Source of the DNA: Halorussus caseinilyticus
GTDB lineage: Archaea > Halobacteriota > Halobacteria > Halobacteriales > Haladaptataceae
Assembly: GCF_029338395.1 (NCBI RefSeq)
Contig: NZ_CP119810.1
Coordinates: 62,001 to 126,000 of the forward strand
Direction: 5' to 3'
Length of the DNA: 64,000 nucleotides
Below, piece by piece: positions 331 to 57,195 of the stretch. The first letter of the stretch is position 1. Every line of letters begins with the position of its first letter. The notes beneath the pieces are model-generated. The model did not search any database. It was not told the DNA's origin and saw only the letters and a program-made list of their open reading frames with translations. The translations under genes were made by a program, and so were the position numbers.

Positions 331-2505
331 ATGGCTACGCAACCGAAGTTCACGGCGTCGTCCGACCCGACCGGCCTCGGCGTTATCGACCCCATCGAGA
401 CGCGTCACTTCACGGTCGGCACGGATTCGCCCGTGGACCCCTCGGAAGTCGAACCCGACCGGTTCGCGTTTCCGGTCGCCACGGCCTGCCGGATTCGAGC
501 GACCCGGATTTCGCTCTCCTACATGGTTCCGATAGACGTGCGGACGCCCGAAGGCGACCACCTCGCCTCCATCGACCTGCCGACGACCCGCGAGTTCTCG
601 GGCGGGGAGTACCTGCTGGAACTCCACTCGCCGATAAAGACGTACCTCCGGACGACCGGACCCTTGACCATCGACGCCACCGACGACGGCATCGAAATCG
701 CGTTCGACGGAGAGCGAGCGGTCGAAGTCGGCGCGCGGTCGTACCACAGTGCGCCAGCGGCCACAATCACGGTGCCCGACGACCCCGTGGCGACGATGGA
801 GGCGGTGACGGCGTTCGCCTCGGCGCTCAAGACCACCTCGCCCGAGCGGTCGTGGCCCACCCTGCGGGGTCATCCGCCGGAGGTCGAACGCGGCGACGAA
901 CTGGTGATTCCGGACGAACTCAACGCGCCCGACACCGGAATCACGATTGCGGTGCCGCCCGAGTACGGATACGTCTACACCGTCGCACCGCTTGCCTACT
1001 ACCTCGGCGCGGAGGTGGTGCCGGGCGAGACGGCGCACCTCGCGGCCGAGTCCGGCGTGGACCGACGCCTCGGCGACGACGTGGCGGCGGTCGGCGAGTC
1101 GGTCGAAGCGGTCCTCAAGCGCGTCTTCCTGCTCGACTGCGTGACCAGAACCGAGGGACTCTATCCCGACGACCTGCACGAACGCGACGTGTTGGAGACC
1201 GAGACCGACCTCGACTTCGAGTCGCTCTACGGGGCGTCTCCGGCCGACCGACTCGCGGCCTACCTCGCGGTGTCCGCGGAAGCTATCGCCGCCATCGACT
1301 CGCCGTGGCACCGCGTCACACACATCGAGGGCGACCCCGGTCCCGAGGCGGTCGAACTCCTGCCGTACGTGGTCAACGACCTGTCGCTGATCGCGGTGAA
1401 GGACGCGAGCGACGAGGAGTGGTCGCCGACCGAGACTCAACAGCAGACCGGCGATGCGCTGGAGGAGTTCGTCCGGTCGCCCGGACTCCGGCGTTCGCCC
1501 GGCCGGAATTCCGGACTGGAAGACACCGATTGCGAACGCGAAACCGCGGACGAACCGGCGCGACACGCCGCTCGCGGCGTGCCCGGCGTCGGCGGGTACA
1601 TGCCGCTTCCGGAGACCGACGCCCTCGAACAGGCGTGGATAGGCGACCGAACGCCGGTGCAGGGGACGAAGTTGCTCCGGGACGCGTTCGGACGCGACGC
1701 CGCGTCGTCCGACGACGGAATAGTCGAGATTCGGGTCGTCTGCAACGACGACGCGATGCGCGAGGAACTCGACGCGACCACCGAAATCTACCGTGACCGC
1801 GACGACCTGCGGGTGAACCTCTCGTGTGAGTTCGACGTGACGACCGACGAACTCCGGGCGTTACTCGCCGAGGAGAGCGCGATGTTCCACTTCATCGGCC
1901 ACATCGACGGTCCGGGGTTCGAGTGTTCCGACGGCGTCTTGGACGCCGAGACGCTCGACGAGGCGAACGCCAAAATCGTCCTCCTGAACGGCTGTCGCTC
2001 CCACGACCAAGGCGTCGAACTCGTGGAGACCGGCGCGCGAGCGGCGGTCGTCAGCCTCGGCGACCTGTGGAACGAAGGCGCGGTGGAAGTCGGCGAGACG
2101 CTGGCGCGACTCTTACATTACGGGTTCAGCGTCGGCCACGCGATGAGACTCGTGCGAGAACACACGTCGCTGGGGAGAGACTACGTGGTCGTCGGCGACC
2201 CCGGTATCGCGTTCGCCCAGTGTAAGAGCAACTTACCGACGTTGTTCTCGCTGTCCCAATCAAGCGCCGGAGGCTCGAACCGACTGTCGATTACGCCGAG
2301 TTCGTACGTGAAGCGGGACTTCGGTGTCGGTTCGACTATCCGTCCTCACTTGCCCTCTATCGAGAAACACTACGTCGCGCTCGGAGAGTCCGAGGGAGTC
2401 GAAATTAGCCGCGCTTCGCTCACCGAGACGTTCGAGAACGACTACGCTCCGTTCATCATGGACGGCGAACTCGTCTGGAGCGACGAGTGGACAGAGCGAC
2501 GGTGA
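331..2505 (+). CDS. CHAT-domain (caspase-like) protease, haloarchaeal type
   Basis: A 724-residue cytoplasmic protein. The first ~170 residues look beta-rich and residues ~170-430 mostly alpha-helical. The C-terminal ~290 residues carry a CHAT (clan CD, caspase/separase-like) peptidase domain. The expected catalytic pair is visible: His524 in FHFIGHIDG after a hydrophobic strand, and Cys555 in IVLLNGCRS after the next strand. The downstream GARAAVVSLGDLW and DYVVVGDPGIAF strands also fit CHAT. In other prokaryotes CHAT proteases act with sensors or partners in programmed responses such as defence; the partner here is unknown. The start is the first ATG of the coding frame, with no clear Shine-Dalgarno. 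The gene ends one base before the stop of the convergent 45-residue membrane peptide and lies upstream of a RecA-like protein gene. The domain assignment is firm; the biological role is inference. Confidence 0.82.
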   Translation: MATQPKFTASSDPTGLGVIDPIETRHFTVGTDSPVDPSEVEPDRFAFPVATACRIRATRISLSYMVPIDVRTPEGDHLASIDLPTTREFSGGEYLLELHSPIKTYLRTTGPLTIDATDDGIEIAFDGERAVEVGARSYHSAPAATITVPDDPVATMEAVTAFASALKTTSPERSWPTLRGHPPEVERGDELVIPDELNAPDTGITIAVPPEYGYVYTVAPLAYYLGAEVVPGETAHLAAESGVDRRLGDDVAAVGESVEAVLKRVFLLDCVTRTEGLYPDDLHERDVLETETDLDFESLYGASPADRLAAYLAVSAEAIAAIDSPWHRVTHIEGDPGPEAVELLPYVVNDLSLIAVKDASDEEWSPTETQQQTGDALEEFVRSPGLRRSPGRNSGLEDTDCERETADEPARHAARGVPGVGGYMPLPETDALEQAWIGDRTPVQGTKLLRDAFGRDAASSDDGIVEIRVVCNDDAMREELDATTEIYRDRDDLRVNLSCEFDVTTDELRALLAEESAMFHFIGHIDGPGFECSDGVLDAETLDEANAKIVLLNGCRSHDQGVELVETGARAAVVSLGDLWNEGAVEVGETLARLLHYGFSVGHAMRLVREHTSLGRDYVVVGDPGIAFAQCKSNLPTLFSLSQSSAGGSNRLSITPSSYVKRDFGVGSTIRPHLPSIEKHYVALGESEGVEISRASLTETFENDYAPFIMDGELVWSDEWTERR

Positions 2506-2506
2506 A

Positions 2507-2644
2507 CTACGGGCCTCCCTTACCGGTGGTGTGAGTTGCGACGACGGTGCCCGTCTCCGCGAGGAGGAGGAGCAACGTACACAGAGCGCCCATCAGTTTC
2601 GGATTCTCCGCGAGCCAATCTCTAACTTCTGACTTCTTTGCCAT
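2507..2644 (-). CDS. 45-residue single-span membrane peptide beside the CHAT gene
   Basis: A small gene with start ATG at 2644 and stop TAG at 2507-2509. The product begins MAKKSEVRDWLAENPKLMG, continues as a hydrophobic segment (residues ~17-37, with a run of five Leu) and ends with a short Gly/Lys/Pro tail. The pattern of charged N-terminus, LAENPKLMGAL and one transmembrane helix resembles a family of tiny haloarchaeal proteins that I believe is catalogued as DUF7503; the name is from memory. Its stop is one base from the stop of the convergent CHAT gene. It may be a membrane partner, sensor or toxin-like peptide of the protease, which is inference. An AT-rich block just upstream (2645-2710) fits a promoter. 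Confidence 0.6.
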   Translation of the reverse strand: MAKKSEVRDWLAENPKLMGALCTLLLLLAETGTVVATHTTGKGGP

Positions 2645-3122
2645 TGCAAATTAATCTATGCCTCCTGTTATTATCTATTTTTCTATATATTTCTAAGGGT
2701 AAAATAATGCAGAATGGTCGCACGCCGCCCGCGAACGCTTCCGAGACCCCGATTTCCGACGCCCGGAGCGCCGTCAGCGGGGACCGGTCGGTCCGCACTG
2801 GCGGACTAGCCCGGCGGGACGCTCGTCCCGACCGAGACGGAACGGTCTAGAAATATCTCAGTATACTACATCTGTCCTTTAGACTAGTATAGCTAGTCAA
2901 AGCAAAGAAGGAAAATTGCGCGGGGACGACTGTATCGGGGGAGGTTCGATGACTCCGGACGGCCCGTCGGGGGTTGCGTCCGCAAGCGGACGCGACCCGA
3001 CGAAAAGAGGTTCGTGGACCGACGGAAGAAATGCAAAATAACTATAAGTATCACTTAAATCGACGTATGTCGAGAGAGTAATTTTATAACGGAATAGATG
3101 GAAATACTGATATACCATACCA
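2645..3122. other. Intergenic region with AT-rich promoter blocks and small hairpins
   Basis: No convincing gene. AT-rich blocks at about 2645-2710 and 2850-2920 are likely promoters for the tiny membrane gene and its neighbours. Two perfect inverted repeats are present: 2815-2830 (CGGGACG/CGTCCCG, 2-nt loop) and 2882-2898 (GACTAG/CTAGTC, 5-nt loop). A TATA-like TTTTATAAC at about 3082-3090 lies upstream of the RecA-like gene at 3123. Confidence 0.5.
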
Positions 3123-3878
3123 ATGACGACGGGACAGAACACTCGGCAACCGGACGGCGGGCCGCCGCCAGACGACGACTTCAACGCGTTCCTCGGAATC
3201 TTGAACCAACTGAAGGCGACTGGGTGTGCGGTGCTGGTCGTCGGCGACGCCCCGCGAGAACTGTTCACCCGCGCGAGCGGACAGTTGCTGGGCGACCCCG
3301 AGACGGTTCGCCATCGGGTCCTCGCCGTCACCGACGCCACGTCCGAGAGTGTCGCCGAGAGACTTCCGGACCGGAACGTCGCGCCGCGTCCGCTGGCCGA
3401 GACGACCCGACTGGTCAACCACGCCCACGCGTCGCGGTCGATTACGGCCGCGTCCGAACCGACGACCCGGCCGAAACTCGACGGCATCCGAGAGGTTCGC
3501 GTCTCCGACCCCGAACTGGAGGAGTTTCGGACGGGCCTCGTGGACGCCATCGACGGGGCGGCGGAGTCGGCCACTGCGCTCTCCCCGGCCGACCTCCGGG
3601 TCGGTATCGACTCGCTCGTTCCGCTGTTGGAACGGTACCACGGCGAGGCGGTAGCGCGGTGTCTCGACGCCGTGGGTCGGCACGTCCGCAGCTACGACGG
3701 GATGGCCCACTTCGTTCTCCCGGACGCGTACGAGTCCGACCGCGTGCAGGCGCTACGCGCGCACGTGGAGGCGGTCATCGAACTTCGAGCGGTGGACCCG
3801 TCGGAGTACGGCCACGACACACAGCAACGCTGGCACGTCCCACAGCAAGACATCACGACCAAGTGGACGCCGCTGTAG
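3123..3878 (+). CDS. Degenerate RecA/KaiC-like fold protein (DUF7504-like)
   Basis: A 251-residue soluble protein. After a Pro/Gly-rich start it shows a hydrophobic strand (CAVLVVGDAPRELF) where RecA/KaiC ATPases carry Walker A, but no GxxxxGK[ST] is present. Later come a second segment (LRVGIDSLVPLLERYHGE) and a strand (MAHFVLPDAYESD) followed by a helix and VIELRA. The same order (D-S-L-x-x-L-L-E, strand plus Asp-Pro/Ala, helix, final strand) occurs in the gene at 56596-57195, so the two appear to be paralogues. I believe the family is catalogued as DUF7504 (from memory). Without a P-loop it probably does not hydrolyse ATP and may sense or scaffold. It lies next to the CHAT protease and tiny membrane peptide genes, suggesting joint function. 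Confidence 0.62.
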   Translation: MTTGQNTRQPDGGPPPDDDFNAFLGILNQLKATGCAVLVVGDAPRELFTRASGQLLGDPETVRHRVLAVTDATSESVAERLPDRNVAPRPLAETTRLVNHAHASRSITAASEPTTRPKLDGIREVRVSDPELEEFRTGLVDAIDGAAESATALSPADLRVGIDSLVPLLERYHGEAVARCLDAVGRHVRSYDGMAHFVLPDAYESDRVQALRAHVEAVIELRAVDPSEYGHDTQQRWHVPQQDITTKWTPL

Positions 3879-4000: not shown

Positions 4001-4813
4001 TCAGGTTTCGAAAGCGGTCCCGAGGCGGTCCGCGCCGTCGGCGAGTCGGTCGAAGAGCGTCTCGCCCCACGCGACCGCTTGGCAGGTGTCGTTGTGGACG
4101 AACCCGAGTATCGTCCCCTCGTCGTAGAGCATCACGCCCACCGAGCAGTCGGGTCGCTCGTGGCACGCGCCGCCGTACTCCGGTCCGTGTTCGGCGACGA
4201 GCAGGTTGAACGAGTAGTCGTCGTCCGTCTCCGAGAGGACGACGCCCTCGGTTTCGGCTATCGTCTTCACCACTTCTTCGTGGCGCGAGAGCAACCACTC
4301 CAGCACGTCCGTCGAGAAGATTACCTCGGCGGTCATCTCCTCGTCCACGATTTGCTCGTAGTACATATCGACGTACGCCGGGATGACCGTCGTCCCGAAG
4401 GCGCGAACGTGGTCGGCGTCGGCGAGGACCGGTTCGAGTGCTTCGACCGGTCGATGGGGCGAGTGCTGGGTCGGGAGCGACACGTCCGCGTCTTCGAACA
4501 GCGCCGCGTCGAGGGGCGCGTCGGTCGGCATCGCCGTTAGCGCGTCCTGCAGTTCGGCGAGTCCGTGAACGCGGTCGGTGTGCCGGTCGTACTCTTCGAG
4601 GGCGAGTTCGCCAGCGAGCGTCGTCCGGTAGCCCGAATCGTCGCGCGCTACGAACCCGACGCGTTCGAGTTCGCGGAGCGCCCGGTCGATAGTCGAACGG
4701 GACTCTTCGAGTTCGCGGGCCAACTCGCACTTCTGTCGGGGACTATGCAGACGACGCAAGAAGTGGCTTCGACTTCGAAGGCACTTCTGGAGGTCGGCAG
4801 GACCGGAGCGCAT
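4001..4813 (-). CDS. Winged-helix transcriptional regulator with FilR1-type C-terminal domain
   Basis: 270 residues. Residues ~5-75 form a winged-helix DNA-binding domain (KCELARELEESRSTIDRALRELERVGFVARDDSGYRTT). The C-terminal half (~100-265) resembles the FilR1/DUF1724 sensor domain common in archaeal regulators: VRAFGTTVIPAYVDMYYEQ, then AEVIFSTDVLEWLL and a final strand-rich part. Start at ATG 4813. An AT-rich promoter with TTTTATAATTTTATTTT lies about 65-80 bp upstream on the other side of the start. The target and ligand are unknown. It stands alone between the DUF7504-like gene (convergent) and the peptide-binding protein gene. Confidence 0.8.
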   Translation of the reverse strand: MRSGPADLQKCLRSRSHFLRRLHSPRQKCELARELEESRSTIDRALRELERVGFVARDDSGYRTTLAGELALEEYDRHTDRVHGLAELQDALTAMPTDAPLDAALFEDADVSLPTQHSPHRPVEALEPVLADADHVRAFGTTVIPAYVDMYYEQIVDEEMTAEVIFSTDVLEWLLSRHEEVVKTIAETEGVVLSETDDDYSFNLLVAEHGPEYGGACHERPDCSVGVMLYDEGTILGFVHNDTCQAVAWGETLFDRLADGADRLGTAFET

Positions 4814-5091: not shown

Positions 5092-6867
5092 TTATTCCAG
5101 CTCGGTCGTGTCGTACATCTGTCGGCTAGTGCCCGCTCCGCCGAACTTCTCGATGCTCACGTTGTCGTACCAGAACCGCTCGTCGGTCCGGTGGTAGACG
5201 GGCAGGAACACCACGTCCTGCCAGTTGGCTTCCTCGATTGTGACGTACGACTCGTTTCGCGCCGCCTCCGCCTCGTCGGTCGGCGCGGGGTTGTCCTGAA
5301 TCTGCTCGTAGGCGCTGGTCGCTTGCTGGGCCGCCTCGGTGCCCGACCAGTTGACGTACGAGATTGGCGCGTCTTGGGAGGTGTCGGTCTGGGGCGGGTT
5401 CAGCAGTTGCAGGAAGTTGTCCGGCGCGGGCCAGTCCATAATCCACCCCAACGAGTACGCCTGTAGGTTGCCTTCGCGTCCGCGTTGGAGCAGAGTCGAG
5501 AACGGCGCACTCTCGACGTTCATCTGGATGTGGGCGCTGGCCAACTGGTCGCGCAGGAGTTGGGCCGTCTGTTGCCACGTGTCCGACCCCGAGTAGATGG
5601 TGAAGGTGAACTGGTACTGGTTGTTCGGACCGTAGCCAGCCTCCTCCATCACCTGTCGGGCTTGGTCGATTTGAGTCGCGTTGTACCCGTAGGGGTAGTT
5701 CTGCTCGGCGTGCTGGTTGTAGGCGTCCGGGCCGCCGGGGTAGATGTTCGGCGGCGTGAAGTGGTAGGAGGCCTGTCCCCGCCCTTTGAAGATTTGTTCG
5801 ATGACCTGCTGTTGGTTCATCGCGTAGGCCGCGGCCTGCCGCGCGGGTTTCTCGACCTGATTCGTGTTGAACCCGATGTAGAACGAGTTGATGGTCGCCA
5901 CCGCGAGGTAGTTCAACGTCGCGCCGTTCCGAACCGGGCCGTAGGTCCCCGACCGTCGCCCGAGGTCGTCGGTGTTCTCGATGCTGACCTTGTTCGGGTC
6001 GTAGAACGGCGTCGGAATCGGGAACACGTCGGCGTTCCGGTTCATCGCGTAGGTGTACCGAGCGTTGTCGTCCTCGATGATGCGCCAGTTAACCGCGTCC
6101 ACCTGCGCGGTCTGCCCGTGGTAGTCGGCGAACCGCGACACCTCGGCGGCGTCGTTGGACTGCCAGCGCTCGAACTGGAACGGTCCGGCCCCGATAGGGT
6201 TCGAGGTCGAGAACTGCTGGTAGGGAATCTCGCCGTCGTACCCCTGAATGTCGCCGACGATGCCCTCCGGAAGCGCCGCGAACGACGTGTACGCCAGCAT
6301 CGGGAGCGTGGCGTGGAACGGTTCTTCCAGCGTCATCCGGAGCGTGTAGTCGTCTACCGCCTCGACCGCCAGCGTCCCCGGTTGATAGTTCCCCTCGTCG
6401 TCGGTCTCGTGTTGGATGCCGATGGAGTCGAGAACGAAGTACGCCCGTCGGGAGTTCTCGGAGGTCGCGAGACGTTCCCACGAGTACACGAAGTCCTGTG
6501 CCGTGACCTCGCCGAAGTCGCCGTGATACGGCGCGCCCTGTTTGAGGTTGAACGTGTAGGTCGTGAAGTCGTCGGAAGTCTCGAAGCTCTCGGCGAGGAG
6601 GTTCTGGACCTCGATTTCCCCGTCGGGATAGTTCATCAGCGCGTCGAATATCTGCTGGATGACCGTCCCCGACGCGGTGTCGGTCGCCTTCACGGGGTCC
6701 AGCGTACTCATCGTGGAGTTGATGAGGTTCAGCGTGCCGCCTCCGCCCCCGTCCTGTTGCGTCGTGCCGTCTTGACCGGCCGCAGTACCCGTAATTGCGA
6801 CAGCCGATGCCGCCCCACCGGTCGCCTTGAGGAACGACCGACGAGACATGTTGGATTTCTCGGACAT
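5092..6867 (-). CDS. Peptide/dipeptide ABC transporter substrate-binding protein (SBP family 5)
   Basis: 591 residues. A Tat signal (MSRRSFLKATGGAASAVAITGTAAG) precedes a Gly/Gln-rich linker. The mature part matches family-5 binding proteins (DppA/OppA): DPVKATDTASGTVIQQIFDALM, VTAQDFVYSWERLA, NPIGAGPFQFERW, ARQAAAYAMNQQQVIEQI and YSLGWIMDWPAPDNFL. Unlike most haloarchaeal binding proteins the signal lacks a lipobox Cys, ending in an AxA-like site, so it may be released or held another way. It would deliver peptides to a Dpp-type importer. No permease is adjacent; dppBCDF lie 15 kb away and could be its partner. Start 6867 is chosen over an internal ATG at 6849, which would also keep the RR motif. 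Confidence 0.9.
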   Translation of the reverse strand: MSEKSNMSRRSFLKATGGAASAVAITGTAAGQDGTTQQDGGGGGTLNLINSTMSTLDPVKATDTASGTVIQQIFDALMNYPDGEIEVQNLLAESFETSDDFTTYTFNLKQGAPYHGDFGEVTAQDFVYSWERLATSENSRRAYFVLDSIGIQHETDDEGNYQPGTLAVEAVDDYTLRMTLEEPFHATLPMLAYTSFAALPEGIVGDIQGYDGEIPYQQFSTSNPIGAGPFQFERWQSNDAAEVSRFADYHGQTAQVDAVNWRIIEDDNARYTYAMNRNADVFPIPTPFYDPNKVSIENTDDLGRRSGTYGPVRNGATLNYLAVATINSFYIGFNTNQVEKPARQAAAYAMNQQQVIEQIFKGRGQASYHFTPPNIYPGGPDAYNQHAEQNYPYGYNATQIDQARQVMEEAGYGPNNQYQFTFTIYSGSDTWQQTAQLLRDQLASAHIQMNVESAPFSTLLQRGREGNLQAYSLGWIMDWPAPDNFLQLLNPPQTDTSQDAPISYVNWSGTEAAQQATSAYEQIQDNPAPTDEAEAARNESYVTIEEANWQDVVFLPVYHRTDERFWYDNVSIEKFGGAGTSRQMYDTTELE

Positions 6868-55330: not shown

Positions 55331-56290
55331 TCAGTTGTAAAGTCCGATGGCCTTGATTTGCTCCTGATACCGATTTCGAATCGTAACCTCGGTGACTTGA
55401 GCTACGTCCGCGACTTCGCGCTGGGTCTTCTTCTCGTTGCAGAGCAGGGAGGCCGCGTAGATGGCGGCGGCGGCGTATCCGGTCGGCGACTTGCCCGACA
55501 GCAGACCCTTCTCGGCGGTCACGTCGATAATCTCGTTGGCCTTGCTCTCGACTTCCTCGCTCAGGTCGAGTTCCGAGCAGAACCGCGGGACGTACTTCTT
55601 GGGGTCTACCGGTTCCATCCCGAGTTCGAGTTCTTGGGAGACGTAGCGGTAGGTCCGGCCGATTTCCTTGCGGTCCACGCGGGCCACTTCCGAGACTTCC
55701 TCCAGCGAGCGCGGGATGCCCTCCTTCCGGCAGGCGGCGTAGAGCGCGGCGGTGGCGACTCCCTCGATGGAGCGCCCGCGAATCAGGTCCTCCTTGAGCG
55801 CGCGCCGGTAGATGACCGAGGCGACTTCCTGAATCGACCGGGGGACCCCGAGCGCCGACGACATCCGGTTGAGTTCGCTGAGCGCGAACTGGAGGTTGCG
55901 CTCGCCCGCGTCCTTCGTCCGGATGCGCTCTTGCCACTTGCGAAGGCGGTGCATCTGGCTTCGCTTCTCCGAGGAGAGCGACCGGCCGTAGGCGTCCTTG
56001 TTCTTCCAGTCGATGGTGGTCGTTAGCCCTTTGTCGTGCATCGTGTTGGTGGTCGGCGCGCCGACGCGACTCTTCGACTGGCGCTCTTGGTGGTTGAACG
56101 CCCGCCACTCGGGGCCGCGGTCCACGTTGCGTTCCTCGACGACCAGTCCGCAGTCCTGACACACTAGCTCGCTCCCGCCAGCGTCCGTGACTAAGGTTCC
56201 TTCCTCGCACTCAGGACACGTCTGGGATTCCTCGGACTCCTCCTGTTCGGTCTCTTGCTCGCGCTCGCGCTGGCGGATTGGCCCCGTCAT
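55331..56290 (-). CDS. tfb: Transcription initiation factor IIB (TFB)
   Basis: 319 residues. N-terminal zinc ribbon (TCPECEEGTLVTDAGGSELVCQDCGLVVEERNVDRGPEW), B-finger/linker (FNHQERQSKSRVGAPTTNTMHDKGLTTTIDWKNKDAYGR) and two cyclin repeats, with KEDLIRGRSIEGVATAALYAACRKEGIPRSLEEV in the first and LSGKSPTGYAAAAIYAASLL in the second. It recruits RNA polymerase to TATA/BRE promoters; haloarchaea keep several TFBs with different targets. ATG 56290. Confidence 0.96.
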   Translation of the reverse strand: MTGPIRQREREQETEQEESEESQTCPECEEGTLVTDAGGSELVCQDCGLVVEERNVDRGPEWRAFNHQERQSKSRVGAPTTNTMHDKGLTTTIDWKNKDAYGRSLSSEKRSQMHRLRKWQERIRTKDAGERNLQFALSELNRMSSALGVPRSIQEVASVIYRRALKEDLIRGRSIEGVATAALYAACRKEGIPRSLEEVSEVARVDRKEIGRTYRYVSQELELGMEPVDPKKYVPRFCSELDLSEEVESKANEIIDVTAEKGLLSGKSPTGYAAAAIYAASLLCNEKKTQREVADVAQVTEVTIRNRYQEQIKAIGLYN

Positions 56291-56595: not shown

Positions 56596-57195
56596 TTAGT
56601 TTTCGGAGGTTGCGTCGAGGTCCACCACCGCGTCCGCGAGTTCGCGGACTGCCGAGAGCGACCGGTGGTCGTGGGCCGTGGGGTCTAGCAGGTAGTACCC
56701 CCGGCCGTCCACGCTCTCGACGCGGCCAGCGAGGACGTGGAAGAACTCGAAGGCCCGGTCGAAAGCGACCGACTCCAGCAGGGCCGTCAGCGAGTCGAGG
56801 TAGACCACCGTCTGGCGAGCGTTGTCCTCCCACGTTTCGAGGTACTCGCTCGCGGTGACGCCGACCCGCGCGAGGTCGGTCGGGTCCGAGACGGCCTTCA
56901 CGACCGACGGTCCGTCGTCGGACGACGACGGACCGCCGGTCGTCCGCGTCGCGCCCGAGACCGCGCCCGAACGCGTCGCGTTTCCGACGTGGACGAATCC
57001 GACCTCGGACGGCAAGTCGCCGCCGAATCCCCGCCAGTCTCGAAGCCACGCGTCGGGGGTATCGCGGTAGGAGACGACGAGCAGATTCGTCTCGGCGGGC
57101 CGCGCCAACGCGTCGAACACCTCCTCGGTCGCGCTCTCGGGTACCGTAGACGCCTCCAACAGGGTGTTGGAGGGCGAAGATTGTGAACGGGACAC
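56596..57195 (-). CDS. Degenerate RecA/KaiC-like fold protein (DUF7504-like), second copy
   Basis: 199 residues, GTG start 57195. ETNLLVVSYRDTPDAWLRDW, then VGFVHVGNATRSGAVSG, then TVVYLDSLTALLESVAFDRAFEFFHVLAGRVESVDGRGYYLLDPTAHDHRSLSAVRELADAVVDL. This RecA-like order is close to other DUF7504-type proteins: the D-S-L-T-A-L-L-E block replaces Walker B, and LDP-x-x-HD follows the next strand. No Walker A is seen. It matches the gene at 3123-3878 in its C-terminal half. The divergent zinc-ribbon membrane protein is a neighbour. Role unknown. Confidence 0.65.
   Translation of the reverse strand: MSRSQSSPSNTLLEASTVPESATEEVFDALARPAETNLLVVSYRDTPDAWLRDWRGFGGDLPSEVGFVHVGNATRSGAVSGATRTTGGPSSSDDGPSVVKAVSDPTDLARVGVTASEYLETWEDNARQTVVYLDSLTALLESVAFDRAFEFFHVLAGRVESVDGRGYYLLDPTAHDHRSLSAVRELADAVVDLDATSEN

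Follow-up and report, generated by a model that had tools for sequence, protein, structure and literature searches.

Why should the gene of a caspase-type protease in a haloarchaeon end within one base of the gene of a tiny peptide, and what might the one have to do with the other? The question is posed by the beginning of a 64,000 nt stretch of Halorussus caseinilyticus (GCF_029338395.1, NZ_CP119810.1, positions 62,001-126,000, forward strand; here called the window), which sits on a 427 kb contig of a 4.39 Mb genome. An earlier, sequence-only reading had pointed out three open reading frames (ORFs) here, and they are present as it claimed: a 724 aa CHAT protease, a 45 aa peptide encoded tail-to-tail with it, with 1 nt between the stop codons (2503-2505 for CHAT and 2507-2509 for the peptide), and a 251 aa RecA-like protein. 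The answer that we tentatively favour is that the first two may form a protease-propeptide cassette, in which the C-terminal tail of the peptide would be a ligand or substrate of its own CHAT. The evidence throughout is comparative.

The association of the three genes is far from random. In a set of 8 genomes there are 79 CHAT entries (fragments included), 44 members of DUF7503, the Pfam family of the peptide, and 133 of DUF7504, the family of the RecA-like protein. Of the DUF7503 genes, 40 lie within 100 nt of a CHAT gene, 41 within 1 kb, where 0.39 would be expected from uniform placement and rounded genome sizes, and 42 within 5 kb; all 40 of the closest are downstream of CHAT and on the opposite strand. 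DUF7504 is found within 1.6 kb of CHAT in 51 of 133 cases, as against 1.5 expected on the same assumptions. At this distance it is upstream of CHAT on the same strand in 38 pairs and downstream on the same strand, as in the window, in 13, with 2 pairs in opposite orientation; in the clade of the window it follows the peptide, while elsewhere it is more often directly upstream of CHAT. The recurrent three-family module of haloarchaea that the sequence-only reading had proposed is therefore borne out by co-occurrence counts, and the two family numbers that it gave are correct, the window proteins matching PF24335 (DUF7503; E 6.6e-13, 48.5 bits against a cut-off of 27) and PF24336 (DUF7504; E 3.7e-41, 142 bits against 27). 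No third conserved gene was seen in 139 loci, where the only neighbour clusters to recur broadly are those of CHAT and DUF7504 (60 loci). The next clusters comprise at most 18 loci and appear by eye, without a scan, to be genus-specific or spurious; among the 16 largest, likewise judged by eye and not scanned, no cas-like or gasdermin gene was recognised, and the peptide of the window is itself small (45 aa). Three loci (L031, L076, L086) contain two CHAT-peptide cassettes each, and in L034 two CHAT fragments with their own peptides stand beside two complete cassettes.

The Pfam family DUF7503 was rejected as the limit of the peptide family, being too narrow: it has 44 matches for 79 CHAT entries, and many more peptides are found by their position and their final Gly-Pro. 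The peptides at the 3' ends of CHAT genes that Pfam misses are little alike except for an N-region, a hydrophobic stretch and this Gly-Pro. A convergent ORF ending in Gly-Pro is present from -60 to +250 nt of the stop codon in 164 of 212 unique CHAT genes, compared with 16 of 858 controls, and from -12 to +60 nt in 142 of 212 compared with 5 of 858. The controls are the longest non-overlapping other ORFs of the same loci, some of which are perhaps not genes; the sets of loci share species, with identical CHAT ends counted once, and this one takes in 60 loci picked for their resemblance, 30 to a Haloplanus CHAT and 30 to a single-copy CHAT orthologue. In an earlier set, which lacks these 60, a hydrophobic convergent Gly-Pro ORF is found at 96 of 148 CHAT genes and at 1 of 669 controls. 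A hydrophobic convergent ORF of any ending was also tried as a marker and set aside as not specific (113 of 148 CHAT genes, 56 of 669 controls).

These small ORFs behave as genes. Among 96 of them, the terminal glycine is encoded by GGT, GGA, GGC and GGG in 30, 28, 23 and 15 cases, and the proline by CCG, CCT, CCC and CCA in 49, 21, 19 and 7; the use of all four codons for both residues means that the constraint acts on the protein. From 26 independent pairs of orthologues, the ratio of nonsynonymous to synonymous divergence (pN/pS) comes to 0.42 for the N-region, 0.19 for the hydrophobic core, 0.14 for positions -11 to -9 from the end and 0.39 for -8 to -3, with zero change at Gly-Pro by construction, the rows having been picked for that ending. 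By these comparisons the peptide gene is a real coding gene under purifying selection, and no positive selection on the tail was found in the 26 pairs, where its pN/pS is 0.39. The gene is also likely to have its own promoter, because AT content rises to a mean of 83% at -40 to -31 before the peptide start, and TATA-like words are commonest at -50 to -31 (96 members in both cases). At the other end of the gene, 23 of the 96 pairs have stop codons with a four-base overlap, 26 have abutting ones and 15 have a single base between them, and some CHAT-peptide pairs stand 67-123 nt apart.

In its common form, the precursor resembles a signal peptide to which a cargo of nine residues is attached, to judge from the pattern along its length. 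Counted from the C-terminus, the proline of an NP[RK] motif stands 31 residues away in 58 of 95 peptides and 29-32 away in 87; ahead of the hydrophobic core, the nearest charge to come first is K or R in 94 of the 95. Cleavage after position -10 would satisfy the -3,-1 rule in 71 of 95, with AxA or VxA in 49; elsewhere from -20 to -3 it is obeyed less often (next best 0.58, at -9), and in some groups of peptides no AxA-like site is seen. From this family pattern a mature tail, THTTGKGGP, is predicted for the window peptide. The tails are highly diverse among paralogues.

It is the exceptions to the common form that single out the tail. With a single-copy CHAT orthologue as the query, a convergent Gly-Pro ORF was counted from the listing at 26 of 30 loci, a number that falls to 7 if a hydrophobicity filter is applied. 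At 19 of those loci, all of genome family f4, the peptides are hydrophilic and end in (R/G)(V/I)S(T/S)Y(G/S)GP, preceded in most cases by AK (...KRVSTYGGP, for example), and at 5 loci of another genus there is a signal-like stretch with a longer tail ending in STSTGP or similar.

Of all the clues, tandem amplification is the strongest. In Haloplanus ruber (L140), a 39 bp repeat in 13 copies starts at the CHAT stop and encodes, behind a short leader, 13 units of TADGNSGGISGP with Y, F or S between them. Arrays of this kind take the place of the single-copy peptide in 9 of 12 Haloplanus genomes, with 13, 7, 4, 5, 10, 7, 14, at least 9 (this one interrupted by a run of N) and 2 units, so that copy number differs between species; the genus name is taken from G106, since its CHAT and that of L140 are 100% identical. 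The units contain GN(S/G)(G/S)(G/A)(I/V)SGP. The remaining 3 genomes have a single-copy form with a hydrophobic core and the tails VAA-GNSGAISGP (L254), VVA-SNGAATSGP (L255) and VAA-SNGGGISGP (L302). In L254 and L302, the nonapeptide after AA is nearly that which follows AD in the array units (AD-GNSGGISGP, GNGGGISGP and similar). The first codons and the upstream sequence are common to the two forms in the eight genomes compared, which makes them one gene. Some 25-75 bp ahead of the peptide start, these eight genomes (L248-L255) share an almost invariant stretch of about 45 bp (TTAATTGATTATATT...ATCAGATATTCTCGAAAAATTATA), which is longer than a TATA box and is possibly the site of a regulator.

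Within the arrays, the units were compared pairwise over their last 11 codons, with L251 left out. Synonymous and nonsynonymous differences number 393 and 0 in L248 (13 units), 164 and 0 in L252 (10 units), 40 and 0 in L249 (7 units) and 12 and 0 in L250 (4 units); in the two arrays whose first unit starts with AAGN and not ADGN they number 46 and 6 (L253) and 276 and 13 (L284). The scarcity of nonsynonymous differences shows that selection holds the nonapeptide nearly identical as its DNA diverges. On this sequence evidence, the tail is the selected unit of the propeptide and CHAT its usual genetic partner, and the span is dispensable where the tail is not. A membrane-tethered sensor or effector, which the sequence-only reading had suggested for the peptide, finds no support as a general rule, since a number of orthologous loci keep the tail without the span and one genus has amplified the tail.

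The larger partner is recognised as a CHAT protease by its fold and residues, since its match to Pfam CHAT (PF12770; E 0.2, 11.5 bits) is below the cut-off of 24; at E <= 0.1 the domain is matched by 4 of 18 members of the family. An AlphaFold2 model from 71 sequences (pLDDT 90.3) resembles gingipain RgpB (Z 19.6, 248 residues, 3.2 Å) and activated SAVED-CHAT (Z 19.4, 169 residues, 2.3 Å), followed by separase (Z about 16), Craspase/Csx29 (Z about 14) and caspases (Z about 12-13). The matches span the C-terminal half, the fold search having hardly covered the 320 or so residues before it. These matches are to the caspase clan, and the His524/Cys555 pair put forward from the sequence also holds, being kept in 145 of 145 aligned relatives, with a further 3 of 148 being fragments gapped at these positions. 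Broken copies with stops in frame or reduced to fragments do exist, but none of the intact copies has lost the His/Cys pair, which argues for a CHAT that is predicted to work as an enzyme. The window protein shows no signal peptide or membrane span by eye, and has no Pfam match to TPR or HTH (E <= 1) or to SAVED; it is probably cytoplasmic. Its closest named relatives are from Halorussus. The divergence of CHAT is correlated with that of its peptide (Mantel r 0.55 for the tail and 0.52 for the remainder of the peptide; of 2000 permutations, 0 reach these values).

The third family, DUF7504, matches Pfam in 54 of 54 CHAT-linked members (alignment A3). The model of the window protein (pLDDT 89.5) matches KaiC (Z 16.1, 184 residues, 3.4 Å), indicating a RecA-like fold, and a Walker A pattern is present in none of the 54, as had been noticed for the window protein from its sequence. 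Two members that are not beside CHAT (L206, L208) retain a P-loop-like GPPMTGKRT, so that the P-loop has perhaps been lost within the family. The idea of a signalling module gains some support from the halobacterial output domain HalOD1, which is present on 8 of the 54 and is tied to signal transduction in PMC10869688.

Taken together, these observations would fit a two-gene cassette made up of CHAT and a convergent gene for a small precursor, with stop codons that abut or overlap. The functional unit of the precursor would be its C-terminal tail, about 9 residues ending in Gly-Pro, set free by signal peptidase in the common form and by another protease in the soluble and multi-copy forms. Once released, it would be a specific ligand or substrate for the CHAT with which it shares a cassette and so set when the protease is active. 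DUF7504, a putative pseudo-ATPase that is sometimes fused to a signalling output domain, is probably the link between the cassette and signal transduction. The release and export of the tail, its binding to CHAT and the regulation of proteolysis are inferred steps, as is a role in signalling, death or defence.

Several observations weigh against this proposal. The cleavage rule at position -10 is broken by 24 of the 95 peptides, and no export signal can be made out in the array and hydrophilic forms. The Mantel correlation drops to 0.31 for the tail and 0.43 for the rest where CHAT distance exceeds 0.5, and linked inheritance alone could produce it. A Gly-Pro ORF is absent from the interval searched at 48 of the 212 CHAT genes, 17 of which have another convergent hydrophobic ORF, and several Haladaptatus peptides have other ends (...GTIS, ...GTIR or similar). 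There are also two orphan Gly-Pro peptides in the genome of the window itself (L216:3906-4049 and L217:3692-3835, both on the minus strand), with no CHAT within the 8 kb examined around each; that of L217 is tail-to-tail with an unrelated gene which by eye resembles a tRNA methylthiotransferase.

The missing export signal of the array and hydrophilic forms, which CHAT by eye shares, would be natural if the peptide were an intracellular regulator that is never released, its tail docking in the cognate CHAT and holding it inactive or serving as a scaffold; the membrane forms would then tether the protease, and the arrays would be multivalent binders. The joint divergence of tail and CHAT would be expected here as well. 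In the common form, however, the K or R that comes first before the core (94 of 95 peptides) predicts an N-in/C-out topology, which would place the tail outside and away from CHAT, and we consider this main rival improbable, though with a real share of the probability. It is a good deal less probable that the peptide is a membrane effector or dedicated substrate, a one-span protein whose cleavage by active CHAT makes the membrane permeable or sets a fragment free, as in the protease-gasdermin or Craspase-Csx30 pairs to which it might be likened. A caspase-clan fold with intact catalytic residues, the single hydrophobic span of the usual form and the common NP[RK] motif all speak for such an effector, but orthologous loci without the span retain the tail, and it is the tail that has been amplified and not the span.

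In most pairs the stop codons overlap or are within a few bases of each other; the transcripts therefore probably share sequence at their 3' ends, and the two could be mutual antisense regulators to which the peptide is incidental. Conservation of the protein while synonymous change is free, together with the pairs that are 67-123 nt apart, makes a role at the level of RNA very improbable. Simple hitchhiking, in which CHAT, peptide and DUF7504 travel together without joint function, might be imagined for large paralogue families that could co-duplicate on chromosomes and plasmids. It is close to refuted by the counts, given that orientation and spacing are fixed across genera and that the convergent Gly-Pro ORF also stands beside the single-copy CHAT orthologue (26 of 30 loci).

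If the tail is a released ligand, as in the protease-propeptide cassette that we favour, then peptide signalling linked to a caspase-type protease would exist in archaea, and candidate genes would be at hand both for the caspase-like activity of haloarchaea and for archaeal signals. A further step, which we regard as doubtful but worth stating, is that this would be the first genetically encoded peptide-signalling family of the archaea, in which released Gly-Pro nonapeptides, each specific to its CHAT, gate proteolysis by density, kin or stress. The caspase-type protease would then be the peptide receptor, and one genus would have raised the dose by tandem amplification. As the arrays give peptide sequences of exact predicted mass, the idea is directly testable.

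Relatives of the CHAT protein are found in 179 of 194 genomes of the class (E <= 1e-20), including 28 of 28 of the family to which the window belongs, and are heavily duplicated. In a sample of the phylum, 32 of 196 genomes have a CHAT match, 4 of them in another family, and none of these 4 has a DUF7503-like peptide beside CHAT; in one (L183), an ORF that overlaps the CHAT end by 35 nt does end in Gly-Pro, which was taken as chance. A CHAT relative is carried by 22 plasmid records, all of haloarchaeal genera, and is mostly annotated as "hypothetical protein" among the 15 plasmid records listed. Carriage by phages or viruses was considered and rejected, with no match in the phage records or viral contigs scanned. 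None of CHAT, the peptide and DUF7504 has a PADLOC match at E <= 1. For the abortive response or defence that the sequence-only reading had considered, the results thus speak neither for nor against. In the library of papers searched, none names DUF7503 or DUF7504 and none has both "CHAT domain" and "Haloferax", and nothing of this kind was among the matches listed in the other searches.

The features of the window are collected in the table. The module is adjoined by a gene for a regulator, whose weak PADLOC matches to CARF-linked models involve its HTH part only. The solute-binding protein that lies 1.2 kb from DUF7504 is probably there by coincidence, because no such gene was recognised among the recurrent neighbour clusters. 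Far from the module there is a second DUF7504 protein with no CHAT match near it.

Features of the window (positions in the 64,000 nt stretch)
Feature	Position	Strand	Basis or remark
CHAT (caspase-clan) protease, 724 aa	331-2505	+	ORF, fold and conserved residues; catalytic domain about 459-630, with His524 and Cys555
DUF7503 propeptide gene, 45 aa	2507-2644	-	Pfam PF24335; N-region with NPK, hydrophobic core 17-36, C-terminal Gly-Pro
Predicted mature tail THTTGKGGP, 9 residues after Val-Val-Ala	2510-2536	-	inferred from family pattern
Upstream region of peptide gene, AT-rich promoter-like stretch	2645-2725	-	family average and window sequence
DUF7504 protein, 251 aa, KaiC/RecA fold without Walker A	3123-3878	+	Pfam, fold and Walker A count
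FilR1_middle / HVO_A0261_N type regulator	4001-4813	-	
Extracellular solute-binding protein family 5	5092-6867	-	PF00496, TAT signal
Gene resembling transcription initiation factor B, adjoining the second DUF7504 gene	55331-56290	-	named by eye
Second DUF7504 protein	56596-57195	-	E 4.1e-28

Among known systems, the catalytic fold and the conserved His and Cys are shared with gingipains, separase and caspases (clan CD), from which the present proteins differ in having an N-terminal region of more than 300 residues and in forming a haloarchaeal family. The CHAT protease fold itself links them to SAVED-CHAT and to the TPR-CHAT protein Csx29 of Craspase, in both of which a protease works with a dedicated partner (Csx30 in the case of Csx29). 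Here, on the other hand, there is neither a SAVED nor a TPR match nor a PADLOC match, and the partner is mostly a precursor of 40-55 aa encoded by a convergent gene. The repetition of identical units in one precursor recalls the alpha-factor of yeast, where several identical short peptide units are likewise made from each precursor.

Within the haloarchaea, caspase-like activity with Asp at P1 has been described in Haloferax volcanii, and archaeal genomes were said to be without clear homologues, in PMC3615174. The CHAT family, which occurs in Haloferax species, is a candidate for this activity, though another enzyme may be its source. H. volcanii also has a quorum signal, called the first characterised archaeal quorum-sensing system in PMC13286277, and described in PMC12240190 as a secreted small molecule for which a 3 kDa filter was used and on which proteinase K had no effect. 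A Gly-Pro peptide is not favoured as this disk-forming signal because of the indifference of the signal to proteinase K; the same paper lists other archaeal signals whose molecules are unknown. An extracellular serine protease with its precursor protein, as outlined in PMC12893001, is a different system.

The most similar arrangement is streptococcal. In group III Rgg/SHP systems, according to PMC13361665 and PMC3679016, the pheromone gene is convergent with the receptor gene and overlaps its end, and the pheromone, 8-9 residues long, comes from the C-terminus of its precursor. A small hydrophobic precursor from a convergent gene and several diverging copies per genome are features in common, and the short C-terminal peptide predicted here would be another. 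The receptor there is a TPR regulator, whereas here a caspase-clan protease takes that place, for which Pfam gives neither a TPR nor an HTH match, and the present cassette is archaeal, has a Gly-Pro end and includes multi-copy precursors, with a predicted release of the peptide. Since its partner is a protease and not a receptor with TPRs, the cassette is not a member of the Rgg/SHP group, but by analogy group III Rgg/SHP is the closest working model for how such a convergent pair might operate.

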